Source: Bacillota bacterium
GTDB lineage: Bacteria; Bacillota; Limnochordia; Darwinibacteriales; Darwinibacteriaceae
Direction of reading: 5' to 3'
Assembly (NCBI GenBank): GCA_012521465.1
Contig: JAAYMI010000196.1
Location: forward strand, 1-34,991
Length of the DNA: 34,991 nt
The translations under genes and the position numbers were made by a program. How positions within the stretch are numbered: position 1 is the stretch's first letter; each line of letters opens with the position of its first letter. The notes under the pieces are model-generated. The model saw nothing but the letters and a program-made list of their open reading frames with translations, made no database searches and was not told the DNA's origin. Positions 5,971 through 28,621 of this stretch are shown here, in pieces.

Positions 5971-6858
5971 TTACCTTACGCGTTCCAAGGCATCTGCACC
6001 GCCTACGATTTCCGCAATCTCCTTCGTAATGGCAGCCTGGCGTGCCCGGTTAAAGGACAGCGTCAGTTCTTTAATGAGTTCACCAGCGTTGTCGCTGGCA
6101 TTGCGCATGGCGGTCATGCGGGCCCCAAACTCGCTGGCCTTCGCTTCCATCAAAGACTGGAAGATGGCCGCGTCAATCAAGAGGGGCACAACCACGTCAA
6201 TAACCTGGGATAGACTGGGCTCATAGAAATACACCGGATCGAACGCGGCCTGGGTTTCCTGCTCCCCGCCGGTATAGGCATCCCCAATTGGCAGGATTGG
6301 ACGCAGCTCTACTCGATGCGTAACTGTGTTTATAAACCTGGTATAGAGTATGCTGGCCTTGTCAAACAGATCGTGCACATAGAAATCATAGATCATCTGC
6401 CCAATCTGATGGGCCTGCCCAGTCGTGATGTTATCACCGAGGTTGACAAACTCACCGAGAGTATCCCGATTGCGGCGGCGGAAATAGTCTCTTGCCTTGC
6501 GCCCCACCACGACCAGCATCGTTTTGGGATGCTGCGCGGTAAACTCTGAAGCCCTGCGCAAAATGTTAGCATTGTACCCACCGGCTAGACCCCGTTCCGA
6601 TGTGACTACCACCAAGCAGTGCCTATCCCCCTGCCGCGAGCGGGCAATGGGTGGCAGTTCCTCTCCAACCCGCTCTGCCGCAGCCAAGGCTCTAGATAAT
6701 GACTGCTGCAGGCGGGCGAAGTATGGGCGGGTTGCTTCGGCGCTCTTTTGAGCCTGCCGCAGCTTGGAAGCGGCCACCATTTCCATGGCCTTGGTGATCT
6801 GCTGAATGCTGCGGATGGTGTTCATCCGCCGCTTAATGTCGCGGCCTGTTTGCGCCAC
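5971..6858 (-). CDS. atpG: F1 ATP synthase gamma subunit
   Basis: 295 aa; DIKRRMNTIRSIQQITKAMEMVAASKLRQAQ and C-term FNRARQAAITKEIAEIVGGADAL. Confidence 0.98.
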   Translation of the reverse strand: MAQTGRDIKRRMNTIRSIQQITKAMEMVAASKLRQAQKSAEATRPYFARLQQSLSRALAAAERVGEELPPIARSRQGDRHCLVVVTSERGLAGGYNANILRRASEFTAQHPKTMLVVVGRKARDYFRRRNRDTLGEFVNLGDNITTGQAHQIGQMIYDFYVHDLFDKASILYTRFINTVTHRVELRPILPIGDAYTGGEQETQAAFDPVYFYEPSLSQVIDVVVPLLIDAAIFQSLMEAKASEFGARMTAMRNASDNAGELIKELTLSFNRARQAAITKEIAEIVGGADALERVR

Positions 6859-6869
6859 TTCGCCCCCCC

Positions 6870-8378
6870 CTAACTCATGAAGCTTTGCTTGAATGTTTTG
6901 ATCGCTGTCTCTAAGCCAGCCTTTATCTCGTCTGTGATCTCCTTCTGCTCAGCGATGGCCACCAGAATATGGGGCTGCTCGCGGTGCATGTAGGCCAAAA
7001 GCTCCCGCTCAAAGCGCACCACGTCTTCCACCGCTATGCTGTCTAGGTGCCCGTTGACAGCGGTATACAGGGACACAACCTGCTCAGGCACTGACATGGG
7101 CTTGTACTGCTCCTGCTTGAGGATCTCGTAAATCCGCTCGCCCCGCGCCAGCCGGGTTTGGGTGACTCGGTCTAGATCAGAGCCGAATTGGGCGAATGCC
7201 AGCAGTTCCCGGTACTGCGACAAATCAAGGCGCAGCGTGCCTGCGACTTGGCGCATGGCCCTCACCTGCGCGGCTCCACCTACACGGGATACGGATCTGC
7301 CAACACTCACCGCCGGCCTGATGCCAGCATAGAACAGGTCCGGCTCAAGGTAGATCTGCCCGTCAGTAATAGAGATGACGTTGGTGGGAATGTAAGCAGA
7401 AATGTCCCCTGCCTGCGTTTCAATGATGGGCAGCGCGGTCATGGACCCTCCACCCAACTCGTCGCTCAACTTGGCAGCCCGCTCCAAGAGGCGGGAGTGG
7501 ATGTAAAAGACGTCCCCTGGGAAGGCTTCGCGGCCCGGCGGACGCCTCAAAAGCAGTGACATCTCCCGGTAAGCCGCAGCGTGCTTGGACAGATCGTCAT
7601 AGATCACCAGCACGTCTTTGCCCTTGTACATAAACTCTTCGCCCATGGCAGCACCCGCATAGGGTGCAATGTACAGCAGCGGCGCTGGTTCACTGGCAGT
7701 AGCAGAAACCACAATCGTGTAGTCCATAGCGCCGTGCTTCTGAAGCGTAGCAACTACGCCAGCCACCGTTGAGGCCTTCTGGCCGATCGCCACATAGATG
7801 CAGATCACATTTTGATCATGCTGATTTAGGATGGTATCGACGGCAATAGCAGTCTTCCCCGTCTGCCTGTCACCGATAATCAACTCGCGCTGGCCGCGAC
7901 CAATCGGGATCATGGAGTCAATCGCTTTGAGACCTGTCTGCAGAGGCTGATGCACGCCGCGCCGGTCCACTACTCCTGGCGCCCTAGATTCGATGGGGCG
8001 GTAGGCATTAGCCTTAATCGGACCTTTCCCGTCGATAGGCTGGCCAAGGGGATTCACCACCCGGCCAACTAGTTCTTCTCCCACAGGCACCTGCACAATG
8101 CGGCCGGTCCGCCTTACTGCATCGCCTTCTTTGATGTGTTCATATGGACCTAAAATAACGGCGCCGATGTTATCTTCCTCGAGATTGAGCACCATCCCAT
8201 AGGTCTCTCCGGGAAACTCCAACAGTTCGCCGGCCATTGCCTGCTCTAACCCGTAGACGCGGGCGATGCCGTCACCAACTGTCAGGACCGTGCCTTCCGA
8301 CTCAACCTGCAACTCCGCATCTAGTTCCTGGATCTGGCGGCGAAGGATTGCCACAATCTCATCAGGTCTCATGCTCAT
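6870..8378 (-). CDS. atpA: F1 ATP synthase alpha subunit
   Basis: 502 aa; [19 protein letters not shown]-terminal helix [49 protein letters not shown] 7 nt before ATG. Confidence 0.99.
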
Positions 8379-22981: not shown

Positions 22982-24055
22982 CTACTCAGCCTCCCAACTG
23001 CCCTTCACCGCCACGATCCAGATCGCGGCAAGGGCCAGCCCACACAGAAGCAGCGTTTCCTGGATGAAACGCATCCCCGGCATTGGTTCCACACCCATCA
23101 CAAAACGAAAGCCGCGCGCCACATATGTAGCGGGCAAAACGAGGCTGGCCGCCTTGAAGTACGGAGGTAGAAACTCCAAGGGAAAATACACCCCGGAAAC
23201 AAACATCATGATCGTCATGCCCAGGCCTGCAATTTCCGACGCACTGCGGGCGCTTTTGGCCACTAAGGCAAGCACTGCCCCGGCTCCGCTCATAATCAAA
23301 GTGGCTGCCACCAGGTAGAGGGCAAACAGCGGCCAGTTAATGGGCAGGCGCACCCCCAAAACCAGTCCACCTACCACCAGCACGAGGCAAGCACTGAGGG
23401 CACTGAGAGCCATGCGCGTTGTAATTAGGCCGGCCAGAAAATACAGCTTTCGCATGGGTGTGGCCGCCAGCCGTTTCAGCACAAAGCGCTCTTTCATATA
23501 CAAAAACGAGGAAGAAATCAAGAACAGACCCGATGACATGACGCCCACTGCAATCACGCCAGGGAACATATAGCCCTGCTCGCCGCCGGCCTGGCCCATA
23601 GGTGCAGACTCCACGATGCGCACTGTGAGAAACTCCCGGATATCCATACGCTGTCTGTCGAGGTGGGACCGGATCCCCTCACTCAGCTGCCTAAAAATCT
23701 CATTGTCCTGAAAGCGGGCTGGATTCCTCAGCACCTCTAAGGTGGAACCATCCCACCCCAGACCGAAGTCTGCCTGCTGCAGGGCGACTTGGTAGGAGAC
23801 TTCCTCCAGACTGTCATAGTAGACCGCCTTTAATCCCGCTACCTGCCTAATGGCATTTTCCAAAAGCGCTCGATCAGCAGGAGCTGCCGTGGTGTAAACA
23901 GCGGCCGTGGCCATGCTGCGTTCGCCGGAGTCTGCGAACAGGGGACCAAAAATCAAGAGGAATATCAGGGGAAGCACAAGCGAAAAAAACAGCGCGGAGC
24001 GATCCCGCAGGAGACCAAGGAGTAAAGCTTTCGTGATGGCCAGATAGCTTCTCAT
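22982..24055 (-). CDS. ABC-2 type permease (second of pair)
   Basis: 357 aa; N-terminal TM, large extracytoplasmic region, then TM helices; GLGMTIMMFVSGVYFPLEFLPPYFKAASLVLPATYVARGFRFVM. Confidence 0.88.
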   Translation of the reverse strand: MRSYLAITKALLLGLLRDRSALFFSLVLPLIFLLIFGPLFADSGERSMATAAVYTTAAPADRALLENAIRQVAGLKAVYYDSLEEVSYQVALQQADFGLGWDGSTLEVLRNPARFQDNEIFRQLSEGIRSHLDRQRMDIREFLTVRIVESAPMGQAGGEQGYMFPGVIAVGVMSSGLFLISSSFLYMKERFVLKRLAATPMRKLYFLAGLITTRMALSALSACLVLVVGGLVLGVRLPINWPLFALYLVAATLIMSGAGAVLALVAKSARSASEIAGLGMTIMMFVSGVYFPLEFLPPYFKAASLVLPATYVARGFRFVMGVEPMPGMRFIQETLLLCGLALAAIWIVAVKGSWEAE

Positions 24056-24069
24056 GGCATAGGCACCCC

Positions 24070-25197
24070 TTATACATCCCAGTTAAACTTGGCCAGGCCA
24101 ATGGAGGTGCAGACCACTGCAAAGACAGCCGGCACAACGATATTAGCCCAGTGAGGCGTGGGCGATACGAGCACACCAGTGGTGTGGCGCAGGCCGTTAA
24201 CCAAGTACGTTACCGGGTTAACCAGCACCAAGAACCTCAGGGGGTACGGCACCTGCATCACGGGAAAATAGAGCCCCCCGAGAAACATCATGGGATACAA
24301 GAGAGCGTTGGACAAGGCAGAGGCAGAGTTGGCTGTTTTGGCCAGCGCGCTGATCACTAAACCAACGGACAAGAGCGTAGTCAGGGACAGCACCATGAAA
24401 AACACGGCCTCCAAGGAAAGCAGTTTCAGTTTCACCCCAAAAAACAGTGCCCCAGCCCCATAGATCAGGCCAACCTGCACTAGGGATAAGGCCAAGATAT
24501 ACAAGAGTACACCGCCGAAATACTGCCCCGGGGAAAGGGGCGAGGCAAACAGCCTGCGCAGGCGGCCCAGCTCACGGTCAATTCCCAGCCGCTGCACCAT
24601 GGGGCCAAGTCCCGATGACAAGAACACCATCAAAATGATACCAGGGACCATGTAAGCAGCGAAGCTGAACGAACCCTGGACGGCTGCGGCCGCATCTACG
24701 TCGCGGTATACCGTTCTGACTGTAGGGGCTGTAAGCAGACCTAAGCGCTCGTTAATGCCGAGGTTGAAGGAACGCAGTACCTGGGCGAGGGTATCCCCAG
24801 CGATCTCCGACATCATCCTCCCCGAGCGAATATGCACCTCCGCTTCCGTACCCTGGACATGCACAACGGCATGGCGCTCGCCGCGTGCCAGAGCTTCCAG
24901 TTCATCTGCGAGAGAGCTCTCCGTGTACAAGTTAAGCCAGGTAGGCTCGGCCGCGGCCATCTCCGCGAACGCCTCCTGCACGATCGCGCCAATGGGAACC
25001 AGTTCCCTGCCGGAGGGCGCGCTGGTCACAAGGCCGACGTCGAATACAACCTCGCTGAGAGTCTCTCCCAAGTTCCCAAAAATCGAGACTAGAATCACCA
25101 GCAGAATGATGGGAAAAACGAGGTCCCAAAACAGGGTATATTTGTCCCGCAGGCTGCTGAGGAGCAAGCCGCGGAACACAGCTCTCACCTGCCGCAT
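24070..25197 (-). CDS. ABC-2 type permease (first of pair)
   Basis: From MRQVRAVFRGLLLSSLRDKYTLFWDLVFPIILLVILVSIFGN; start ATG at 25197 overlaps the upstream ATPase stop (TGATG), suggesting translational coupling. Confidence 0.88.
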   Translation of the reverse strand: MRQVRAVFRGLLLSSLRDKYTLFWDLVFPIILLVILVSIFGNLGETLSEVVFDVGLVTSAPSGRELVPIGAIVQEAFAEMAAAEPTWLNLYTESSLADELEALARGERHAVVHVQGTEAEVHIRSGRMMSEIAGDTLAQVLRSFNLGINERLGLLTAPTVRTVYRDVDAAAAVQGSFSFAAYMVPGIILMVFLSSGLGPMVQRLGIDRELGRLRRLFASPLSPGQYFGGVLLYILALSLVQVGLIYGAGALFFGVKLKLLSLEAVFFMVLSLTTLLSVGLVISALAKTANSASALSNALLYPMMFLGGLYFPVMQVPYPLRFLVLVNPVTYLVNGLRHTTGVLVSPTPHWANIVVPAVFAVVCTSIGLAKFNWDV

Positions 25198-26126
25198 CAA
25201 TCCCTCAACCCCTTGCCTGTGAGAGTCAGGAACACATCCTCCAGGTTCGGGCGGCGCACGGCGAGGTGCTCGATTGCCATCCCCTGCTGCTTTGCCCATT
25301 CCACGATGCGGGTCAAATCGCCAGTGAGGTCCTTGGTATACACTGCCACCTTTTCGGCCCCCACCCTGAGGCCATCCATCTGCTCCAGTTCTTGGAGCTG
25401 CTCTGGGCCGAATCCGCCTCGGCTGAATTCGATGACATTCTCCTGCCCCAGGTTATCCACGAGGGACTGGGGCGTACCTTTTGCAATGATCTTGCCCTGA
25501 TCCATGATGTAGACAAAGTCGGACAGCTGCTCTGCTTCGTCCATGTAGTGGGTGGTGAGGAAAATCGTTTTGCCCTGCTCCTTGAGGGTCTCGATTAGAT
25601 CCCAGATGTTCCGGCGGGCCTGGGGGTCAAGCCCAGTCGTGGGCTCGTCCAGGAAGATCACTTCCGGATCGTTGACCAGCGCTAAACCGATCGCCAACCG
25701 CTGGCGCTGGCCACCGCTGAGCGTCTCCACCAAGGCGCCAGCCTTATCCGTGAGGCTGCACACTTCCAAAAGCTCGTCGGCCTTCAGCGATCGGCGGTAG
25801 AACGAGGCGAACATCTCCAGCATTTCCCGCACCTTCAGCTTGGGCAGCCAGTTCGTCTGCTGCAGGAGCACGCCGATCCGTTCCTTTTCCTCCCGGCCGA
25901 TGGTGCGGCACGGCTTTCCAAGGAAGATGATCTGGCCGCTGTCGGCCTGCCGCAGCCCCTCCAAGATTTCCACGATGGTCGTCTTGCCCGCGCCATTCGG
26001 CCCCAGCAGGGTAAAGACCTGGCCGCGCAGGCAGTAGAAGGATACTCCATCAACGGCCTTCACGCTGCCGTAGTATTTCTTCAAGTCGATGACCTCTACA
26101 GCTACCTGTGCCTGAGTGTCTGCCAT
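25197..26126 (-). CDS. ABC transporter ATP-binding protein, DrrA/LnrL-type exporter ATPase
   Basis: From MADTQAQVAVEVIDLKKYYG; Walker A GPNGAGKTTIVEIL, signature LSGGQRQRLAIGLAL, Walker B VIFLDEPTTGLDPQARR; C-term RRPNLEDVFLTLTGKGLRD. Start at 26126 with SD GAGGAGAGG. Confidence 0.95.
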   Translation of the reverse strand: MADTQAQVAVEVIDLKKYYGSVKAVDGVSFYCLRGQVFTLLGPNGAGKTTIVEILEGLRQADSGQIIFLGKPCRTIGREEKERIGVLLQQTNWLPKLKVREMLEMFASFYRRSLKADELLEVCSLTDKAGALVETLSGGQRQRLAIGLALVNDPEVIFLDEPTTGLDPQARRNIWDLIETLKEQGKTIFLTTHYMDEAEQLSDFVYIMDQGKIIAKGTPQSLVDNLGQENVIEFSRGGFGPEQLQELEQMDGLRVGAEKVAVYTKDLTGDLTRIVEWAKQQGMAIEHLAVRRPNLEDVFLTLTGKGLRD

Positions 26127-26139
26127 CAAACCCTCTCCT

Positions 26140-27231
26140 CTACAGACGCGGTTCTGGGTACTCCACAATCTTGCCCTCGTATGTGCGCAGAACAACCTTT
26201 TCGGGGGTTTGAGACACCACATACTGCGGGCTCACTGGGATCTTACCGCCGCCACCGGGCGCGTCGATTACAAATGTGGGTACTGCCAATCCAGAGGTAT
26301 GCCCCCTGAGGTTCTCAATAATCTCAATCCCCCGCGCCACCGGCGTGCGGAAATGATCGATCCCCTCCGCTAGATCACACTGATACAGGTAGTACGGGCG
26401 AATGCGGAGCTTGAGCAGCTCATGTACCAGCTGTTTTTGCACAGTAGTGCTGTCGTTAATGCCCCGTAAGAGCACCGTCTGGTTGCCTAGGGGAATCCCG
26501 GCATCCACCAAAGCCGTACAGGCCCGGGCCGACTCCTCGGTGATCTCCTTGGGATGGTTGAACTGCACGTTGATCCACAGGGGGTGGTACTTCCTCAGCA
26601 TCGCCGTCAGGTCAGGCGTGATGCGGTACGGATTAGTCACCGGTGCCCGCGTCCCAATCCGGACGATCTCCACGTGGGGAATGGCCCGGATCCGTGCGAG
26701 GATCCGCTCCAGCTGGCAGTTGGCCAAGGTTAACGGATCGCCGCCGCTGATCAGCACATCCCGAATCTCGGGGTGGTTGGCAATATACGCGGTGACACCC
26801 TCTAACTCAGCGCGCGTCAACCCCCGTTCGGCCATCCCTACCCGACGCCGGCGAGTGCAGTGCCGGCAGTACGTGTGGCAGGTTTCGGTTGCCAGAATTA
26901 CTACGCGGTCGGGATAGCGGTGAATGAGGCGCGGCACGGGCGACAGTCCATCTTCGTTCAAAGGATCGGCCATTGTCACCCCTTGGCCCAATGCCTCTGC
27001 AGCTAAAGGAATCACCTGCCTGCGGATGGGACAGTTAGGATCCGCCCGGTCCATTAGTGAAGCAAAATAGGGTGTAATCCCCACCACAAAGCAGGGGTGG
27101 GATAGCGCGTGTTCCTCCTCAGGTGTTAAGTCAATGATCGCGCCAAGCTGTTCTTTCGTCCGCAGGCGACTGCGCAGCTGCCATCGCCAATCACCCCACT
27201 GGTCAGACCGGCACAAACACACCGCTGGCAT
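26140..27231 (-). CDS. kamA: KamA-type radical SAM lysine 2,3-aminomutase
   Basis: 363 aa; WGDWRWQLRSRL, radical SAM cluster TCHTYCRHCTRRR, DVLISGGDPL, QFNHPKEITEES, PYYLYQCDLAEGIDHFRTPVARGIEIIENLRGHTSG, FVIDAPGGGGKIPVSPQYV. Confidence 0.95.
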   Translation of the reverse strand: MPAVCLCRSDQWGDWRWQLRSRLRTKEQLGAIIDLTPEEEHALSHPCFVVGITPYFASLMDRADPNCPIRRQVIPLAAEALGQGVTMADPLNEDGLSPVPRLIHRYPDRVVILATETCHTYCRHCTRRRRVGMAERGLTRAELEGVTAYIANHPEIRDVLISGGDPLTLANCQLERILARIRAIPHVEIVRIGTRAPVTNPYRITPDLTAMLRKYHPLWINVQFNHPKEITEESARACTALVDAGIPLGNQTVLLRGINDSTTVQKQLVHELLKLRIRPYYLYQCDLAEGIDHFRTPVARGIEIIENLRGHTSGLAVPTFVIDAPGGGGKIPVSPQYVVSQTPEKVVLRTYEGKIVEYPEPRL

Positions 27232-27235
27232 GCCA

Positions 27236-28621
27236 TCAGCTCCCCTCCACCATGGTCGGTGCCATTACCGCATCCACCATCCCATGGATCAGTTTTTTCT
27301 CCACAGGGCATATGGTAGCTAGAATTCCACCTAGGCTGACGCCAGAAGAATGGACAAAGTAATACGGACATAAGCGGACTCGCCCCCGCATGGCCGCAAC
27401 GCTGCCAGTCTCGGGGTCAAAGTAAGAGGCCTCCACCTGACGGGCTTTGCAGAATTCCTGCAGGATGTAGGGATGCGTGGGGAAACTGGCCAGGGCTTCC
27501 TCAAGCCGGGCGCTCCAGTCCGCTTGCGAAAGGTCGTGGCCGATGGAAACGCCTCGGCTTCCCCAAGCCAGCTCCGAAAAACCAGAGACTTTCAAAGCAA
27601 ACTCCCGCCCACTCTGGGAAGCCTGGGCCAGCTGGACAAAATCGGTCACTGGTCGGCCGCCCACTTCTAAGCCGGGAATCACTGCATGTGGCGGCAGAGG
27701 CCGGCTATCCACGATCCAGGTGCGGGGAAAGACCTGCTGTAGTTTGGCAAAGCCTGCTGCGCCCAAACGCTCTTCCCACCAATTGGCCAGGGCAGGATGG
27801 TGGAACAAAGCCAAGTTGAGTTTTTCCTCAAGATAGCTCTTTAGCGGTGGAGTCACGCGCACCAGGCGCTTGCGGATGGCGTAGAGCATCAAGTCGATCT
27901 TGGGAATATTCTTCAGGTCAAACAGCTCGAAAAAGCGGTACAAAACGGTAATGCGCTGCCGAACACCTGCTGCTTCCACGTAAAGGCCGTCTTCCTGAAA
28001 CAGTACTTCCCGCGGTGAAACGGCAAAGCAGGTGAAGCCCTTCTTGCGCAGAGCCCCGGCCAGCCAATCCATTTCTTCCCGGTAATCTGCCGATTCATCA
28101 GAAACCACGATGGCTGCCACCGGTTCCCCGTCATCAAGGCTCCTTACTCCCTGGGCAAAGCCCCGCACGATGCCATCGGCGCCGCCCACCACGGTATATC
28201 CCAGCTGGCTGTACACTCGCCCCAGCTCCCCGGTTAGGCCAAATCCCCCAGGGACGCTATCTAATTCCGTGATAGCGAGACCCGTTTCGGTCAGGAGCAT
28301 ATCAGGACGGATTATGAGGGGCAGGTCCCTGCGAAACCGCCGCATGCGGCCGTATTCAATCACCTGCTCCGGCTTGCCCAGCTCCAAGTACTCGCTGATC
28401 CAGCGGGGCATCCGACCAGCCGCCGAGCTGAGATACAATTCTTGGATGCTGCGATAGAACTCGACAAGCAGCGGGCCAAGCTGCTCAATCTCCGCATAGA
28501 TACTGGGAGAGACGCCAAACGGCCGCGGCGATACTCGCCATCTGATACTCTGCTGAAACTCTCGCTGGACGAATAAACACGCCTCTACCTCAGACGAACT
28601 GTGCAGCAACGCGCGTATCAC
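27236..28621 (-). CDS. ATP-grasp-like (circularly permuted/glutathionylspermidine synthase-like) protein
   Basis: 461 aa, GTG start with SD GGAG; motifs ETGLAITELDSVPGGFGLTGELGRVY, LKSYLEEKLNLALFHHP, FALKVSGFSELAWGSRGVSIGHD, PYILQEFCKARQVEASYFD, VRLCPYYFV. Stop lies a few bp from the kamA start. Confidence 0.65.
   Translation of the reverse strand: MIRALLHSSSEVEACLFVQREFQQSIRWRVSPRPFGVSPSIYAEIEQLGPLLVEFYRSIQELYLSSAAGRMPRWISEYLELGKPEQVIEYGRMRRFRRDLPLIIRPDMLLTETGLAITELDSVPGGFGLTGELGRVYSQLGYTVVGGADGIVRGFAQGVRSLDDGEPVAAIVVSDESADYREEMDWLAGALRKKGFTCFAVSPREVLFQEDGLYVEAAGVRQRITVLYRFFELFDLKNIPKIDLMLYAIRKRLVRVTPPLKSYLEEKLNLALFHHPALANWWEERLGAAGFAKLQQVFPRTWIVDSRPLPPHAVIPGLEVGGRPVTDFVQLAQASQSGREFALKVSGFSELAWGSRGVSIGHDLSQADWSARLEEALASFPTHPYILQEFCKARQVEASYFDPETGSVAAMRGRVRLCPYYFVHSSGVSLGGILATICPVEKKLIHGMVDAVMAPTMVEGS

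Follow-up and report, generated by a model that had tools for sequence, protein, structure and literature searches.

On the reverse strand of the window, by which we mean the whole analysed stretch of DNA (34,991 nucleotides), positions 27236..28621 hold a coding sequence of 461 amino acids with a GTG start at 28621 and a stop ending at 27236, and its product falls in an unnamed family of circularly permuted ATP-grasp proteins (hereafter, the ligase). The next gene on the same strand, kamA (26140..27231, -), starts 4 nt after the ligase stop and encodes a homologue of the radical-SAM enzyme lysine-2,3-aminomutase. It is followed by genes for a DrrA/NodI-like ABC exporter ATPase (25197..26222, -; PF00005, E 1.5e-29) and for two ABC-2 type permeases (24070..25299, -, and 22982..24055, -; both PF01061/PF12698). 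The listed start of the ATPase gene lies inside the KamA gene, and the real start is probably further downstream. A sequence-only reading of this DNA had quoted four segments of the ligase frame as resembling an ATP-grasp active site, and the frame and all four segments are present in the window sequence, as residues 117-131 (28273-28229), 344-361 (27592-27539), 385-397 (27469-27431) and 415-423 (27379-27353).

Neither a search with the window ligase alone nor profile searches with its family returned anything significant in Pfam, NCBIfam or PDB sequences, which bears out the earlier remark that no characterised homologue was recognised; no curated family was found there either. The window protein has no match to the glutathionylspermidine synthase (GspS) family PF03738, for which the best family member reached E 0.0067, below the curated score, with weak matches in 9/40 members; matches to CP_ATPgrasp_1 and CP_ATPgrasp_2 (PF04174, PF14403) were weak as well (best E 0.018 and 0.13). 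The AF2 model of the ligase, built on an input alignment of 40 sequences, has a pLDDT of 93.3 and a pTM of 0.92, and its comparison with the PDB in Foldseek gave 60 matches at E <= 0.001, the lowest E being 4e-16 (glutathione synthetases, GSS). The best 50 of the 60 matches are all GSS, GSS-like proteins, GspS/trypanothione synthetase, YgiC/YjfC, Cp1B, or the entries 3n6x/3k1t; human, yeast, plant and homoglutathione synthetases come first, then GspS, Cp1B and YgiC/YjfC. The predicted fold is therefore not unrelated to ATP-grasp; it is of the circularly permuted glutathione-synthetase/GspS type, as the sequence-only reading had proposed. Judging from this model, the window protein is probably a carboxylate-amine ligase of that class.

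Profile comparison identified a GshA-linked Bacillota ATP-grasp family (L089-L094) as the nearest sister family recognised; hhalign aligned it to the ligase family over the full length with 99.2% probability and E 6.5e-20. Its members (~440 aa) match GSP_synth and CP_ATPgrasp_2 above cut-off, and have no NCBIfam model; in 6/6 loci read the neighbouring gene encodes a glutamate-cysteine ligase of the GCS2 type (e.g., L089:4654-5973, -, next to GCS2 at 5987-7276, -), and this family is probably a non-orthologous glutathione synthetase. It differs from the ligase family in having the GCS2 ligase rather than KamA as neighbour, and in lying across a long, fully supported branch. In a tree with this sister family, 80 ligase members form a single fully supported clade. 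The ligase is thus a member of an unnamed and uncatalogued family inside the circularly permuted ATP-grasp class; what is new is the family together with its cassette, while the chemistry is of an already known type.

Residues R105, D107, E119, D121, K267, K344, S346, G347, W353, G354, Q388 and R416 are identical in 81/81 aligned members, so the quoted segments are not a chance resemblance; the residues for acyl-phosphate chemistry are among those kept throughout, and the predicted ATP and Mg ligands are hence not missing, a point on which the earlier reading had made its assignment depend. Since the ligase family was aligned to GspS via the GshA-linked family (hhalign between the two families, then alignment of the latter to GspS), R105-P-D107 (28301..28309, -; 81/81) can be placed at GspS R316/D318 and Cp1B R139/D141. 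The segment ITELDSVPGGFGLTG (28229..28273, -), which contains E119, D121 and the family signature SVPGG, corresponds to GspS E330/N332 and Cp1B E163/N165, with the Asn of the E-x-N core replaced by Asp (D121) throughout the ligase family. In Cp1B, each of R139, D141, E163 and N165 is required for activity (PMC12568646). The earlier reading had called this region an N-terminally located acceptor/substrate segment; this needs refinement, as ITELDSVPGG aligns with the Mg/acyl-phosphate E-x-N of GspS and Cp1B. Further along, E265-E266-K267 (27821..27829, -; 81/81) contains K267, a proposed ATP-binding lysine that aligns with the invariant K283 of the GshA-linked family; KVSGFSELAWGSRGVSIG (27539..27592, -) would supply a second proposed ATP-binding lysine, K344, and a glycine-rich lid loop, and YILQEFCKARQVE (27431..27469, -) an ATP-grasp strand with the invariant Q388, both assigned from the alignment and the comparison of the two families. 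RVRLCPYYFV (27353..27382, -), with R414/R416, appears from the alignment and the AF2 model to be a C-terminal core strand.

The invariant acidic residues E176 and E183 (28073..28096, -) fall, by sequence mapping only, in the acyl-donor region of GspS/GSS (GspS E391/N393/Q397), GspS Q397 being E183 in the ligase; E176, E232 and D235 are invariant in the family. These four acids may line a binding pocket for an acyl donor with positive charge, the mapping near E232 being ambiguous. Serines S335 and S337 of GspS contact glutathione. In the alignment they become P124 and G126 of the ligase, i.e., the γ-Glu-binding serines are not kept.

Among known proteins, eukaryotic-type glutathione and homoglutathione synthetases (8fbz, 1m0w, 3kal) have the fold in common with the ligase over the whole length (TM ~0.6), with the permuted-order ATP-grasp and the R-x-D and E-x-N core; however, identity is ~14%, the Asn is changed to Asp, the acyl-donor pocket serines are absent, and the ligase is coupled to KamA in genomes of which nearly all are without a GCS2-type γ-glutamylcysteine synthetase. 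GspS and YgiC/YjfC (PF03738) also have the fold, and the GspS R316/D318/E330/N332 core aligns with the ligase, which unlike GspS has no amidase domain and no glutathione partner genes. CP_ATPgrasp_1/CP_ATPgrasp_2 (PDB 3n6x) belong to the same circularly permuted class, but the ligase has another signature (ELDSVPGG) and other neighbours. Cp1B of E-64 biosynthesis (9cjn, PMC12568646) is a stand-alone amide ligase of the same fold with the equivalent residues; it differs in being fungal, in joining epoxysuccinate and hydrophobic amino acids, and in having 17% identity to the ligase in the structural alignment.

In GTDB genomes, a scan for the ligase yielded 47 homologue loci, and the ligase occurs in Bacillota, Nitrospirota, Nitrospinota, Chloroflexota, Armatimonadota and Tanganyikabacteria. 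It is carried by 25/61 genomes (the own genome plus relatives), by 37/301 genomes of a Chloroflexota sample as full-strength members, and by 11/300 genomes of a Bacillota sample, where distant relatives occur in addition. Several carriers are marine, and others belong to freshwater, hot-spring and digester lineages. One ligase gene (L067, genome G046) is split into two frames by an in-frame TAG, which may be decay, recoding or an assembly error. A distant sister family of Chloroflexota with ~25% identity (L203:2867-4339, L204:2642-4066, L205:3738-5165) is encoded in a run of four genes that is conserved and also specifies a 553-572 aa protein and two more proteins.

The KamA of the window scores 511.3 bits against the AblA equivalog model TIGR03820, just short of its cut-off (525.4), is over the cut-off for the KamA family TIGR00238, matches PDB 2a5h with E 9e-143, and keeps D293, D330, K337 and the CxxxCxxC motif. 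All adjacent KamAs with a complete motif likewise retain CxxxCxxC, K337 and both aspartates. We take the D293/D330 pair to hold the lysine ε-amine, as in the C. subterminale enzyme, and K337 to be the PLP lysine. In 42/47 loci, over five phyla, KamA lies directly downstream of the ligase; in one of the five other loci (L010) the contig ends before the KamA site. Among Chloroflexota, KamA is present in 36/37 ligase-positive vs 5/20 ligase-negative genomes (Fisher p 1e-8, an optimistic value because the genomes are related; the 20 negatives were the first listed), and in many Chloroflexota carriers with non-adjacent genes the two lie ~11-28 kb apart on one contig. Nearly all genomes with an unlinked ligase have a KamA elsewhere, mostly of the lysine type. 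Part of this co-occurrence is background, since KamA enzymes are common (over cut-off in 46/61 relatives).

In the KamA tree, a fast tree whose deep branches are provisional, the ligase-adjacent enzymes make up three lineages. That of the Bacillota is sister to the C. subterminale enzyme, a QAD-type occurs mainly in Nitrospirota, Nitrospinota and Chloroflexota, and the Armatimonadota have a short divergent type. Either the pairing has arisen repeatedly or the pair is very old; in both cases a functional link via β-lysine is suggested, and, as three lineages are paired with the ligase, it is the reaction that is conserved and not one linked gene pair.

No KamA was found in three ligase-positive genomes, G046 (87% complete), G381, where the L010 contig ends just past the glutaredoxin, and G656, where the ligase is split across contig ends. 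In one clade (L033-L036, L095-L098) the ligase has no KamA beside it, and at three loci of this clade it adjoins glutamate-semialdehyde-type aldehyde dehydrogenases. These flank the KamA-less subclade L035, L036 and L095, and the two that were tested (L036:10440-12389 and L095:7185-8732) are L-glutamate-γ-semialdehyde dehydrogenases, over cut-off for TIGR01237. In relatives (L120, L121 and L116) there is, in addition, a second type of KamA that has INAPGG instead of the D330 motif and resembles glutamate 2,3-aminomutase.

Among the other neighbours, the ABC ATPase and two permeases accompany the ligase and KamA in close relatives only (L001, L002), so that product export is a local trait at best. 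All Nitrospirota and Nitrospinota loci have a gene for a dithiol glutaredoxin (~79 aa) between those for the ligase and KamA, and three Armatimonadota loci have one behind the KamA gene; the two gene orders suggest that the association is real in these three phyla. None was found near the ligase and KamA in Bacillota and Chloroflexota loci, nor in the window. At one Nitrospinota locus (Nitrospina sp. LS_NOB, L019:9386-10646), a repeat-rich adhesin-like coding sequence of ~1 kb follows a truncated glutaredoxin start and precedes an intact glutaredoxin copy; the interruption is an insertion or an assembly artefact. Lgt, DUF502-like proteins, sigma factors, a LON domain, siroheme-type and HlyD/ABC neighbours (names assigned by eye) differ between lineages, and we do not count them as functional partners.

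From the synteny and co-occurrence with KamA, we consider β-lysine the most likely substrate of the ligase, with a probability of about 0.62. β-Lysine (3,6-diaminohexanoate) would be made from L-lysine by KamA; the ligase, with ATP and Mg2+ and through E119, D121, R105, D107, K267 and K344, would activate a carboxylate as an acyl phosphate and join it to an amine to give a β-lysyl amide. The carboxylate of β-lysine is slightly more likely to be the activated group, because the region corresponding to the GspS/GSS acyl-donor site has the invariant acids E176, E183, E232 and D235, so far as sequence can place them; the reverse, an acid capping one of the amino groups of β-lysine, is possible. 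The arrangement resembles the AblA/AblB system of Nε-acetyl-β-lysine and EpmA/EpmB β-lysylation, where a KamA-family enzyme also feeds a dedicated transfer enzyme, but whereas AblB is a GNAT and EpmA a LysRS-like protein, that enzyme would here be an ATP-grasp ligase. Regarding the role of the product, our belief falls from compatible solute to novel thiol to protein modification.

As a compatible solute, the product would carry an acid on an amino group of β-lysine, or β-lysine on an amino acid, with neutralised charge, and the ligase would replace the AblB acetyltransferase; the chemistry is a sub-case of β-lysine ligation and only the role differs. Nε-acetyl-β-lysine is known to be made on this principle, by KamA and a capping enzyme, the marine carriers fit, and in the relatives of family f5 the gene after an unlinked KamA was taken by eye as AblB, so that β-lysine would be available to both enzymes. 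The freshwater, hot-spring and digester carriers do not fit, however, and a cassette glutaredoxin is not expected in an osmolyte pathway, so we regard this role as doubtful. It seems similarly unlikely that the coupling with KamA is indirect, the substrate of the ligase being glutamate, lysine or some other acid and the two enzymes having no more in common than regulation or pathway context. The unlinked loci speak for this, as does the clade with glutamate-semialdehyde dehydrogenases at its flanks, but the pairing is repeated with three KamA lineages over five phyla.

The glutaredoxin of the cassette, and the lack in carriers of the tested GCS2-type glutathione and bacillithiol routes, raise the thought that the cassette makes a new low-molecular-weight thiol, e.g., β-lysyl-cysteine, with glutaredoxin as its redox partner, which we hold to be quite unlikely. 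If true, the β-amide bond of β-lysyl-cysteine would resist peptidases, like the γ-glutamyl bond of glutathione. BshC of bacillithiol synthesis was found in 0/80 genomes, 45 of them carriers; its absence in carriers and non-carriers alike makes mutual exclusion with bacillithiol uninformative.

That the ligase places β-lysine on a macromolecule, e.g., on Lys34 of EF-P in place of EpmA, is in our opinion very unlikely. Such a use of a KamA-family product is known, EpmA is over cut-off in 0/46 ligase-positive genomes, and those ligase-positive relatives whose EF-P loop was read have PGKG there; but ligase-negative relatives share the PGKG loop and 13/14 of the ligase-negatives are also without EpmA over cut-off, which leaves no correlation, and the link to EF-P does not discriminate, and characterised members of the fold join small molecules, spermidine or peptides. 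Finally, a glutathione-type synthetase acting on γ-glutamylcysteine would agree with the shared fold, with the GCS2 neighbour of the closest recognised sister family and with the glutaredoxins, but GCS2 (the PF04107 type of GshA, which the search covered) is found in 0/25 carrier relatives and 3/35 other carriers, which makes this role unlikely, and P124 and G126 stand in place of the GspS serines, so that we give this route to a glutathione-like product hardly any credence.

β-Lysine ligation thus remains our preferred reading, and the family and KamA together point to a widespread β-lysine-based small molecule. Judged by title and abstract, those of the searched papers that mention both an aminomutase and ATP-grasp describe no such pair, and our analysis predicts a common metabolite for which no description was found. 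The ATP-grasp family, which is uncatalogued and does not vary in its active site, is thereby linked to the supply of β-lysine across five phyla, nitrite oxidisers and marine Chloroflexota among them, and its ligase may provide a stand-alone catalyst for amide bonds of β-amino acids.
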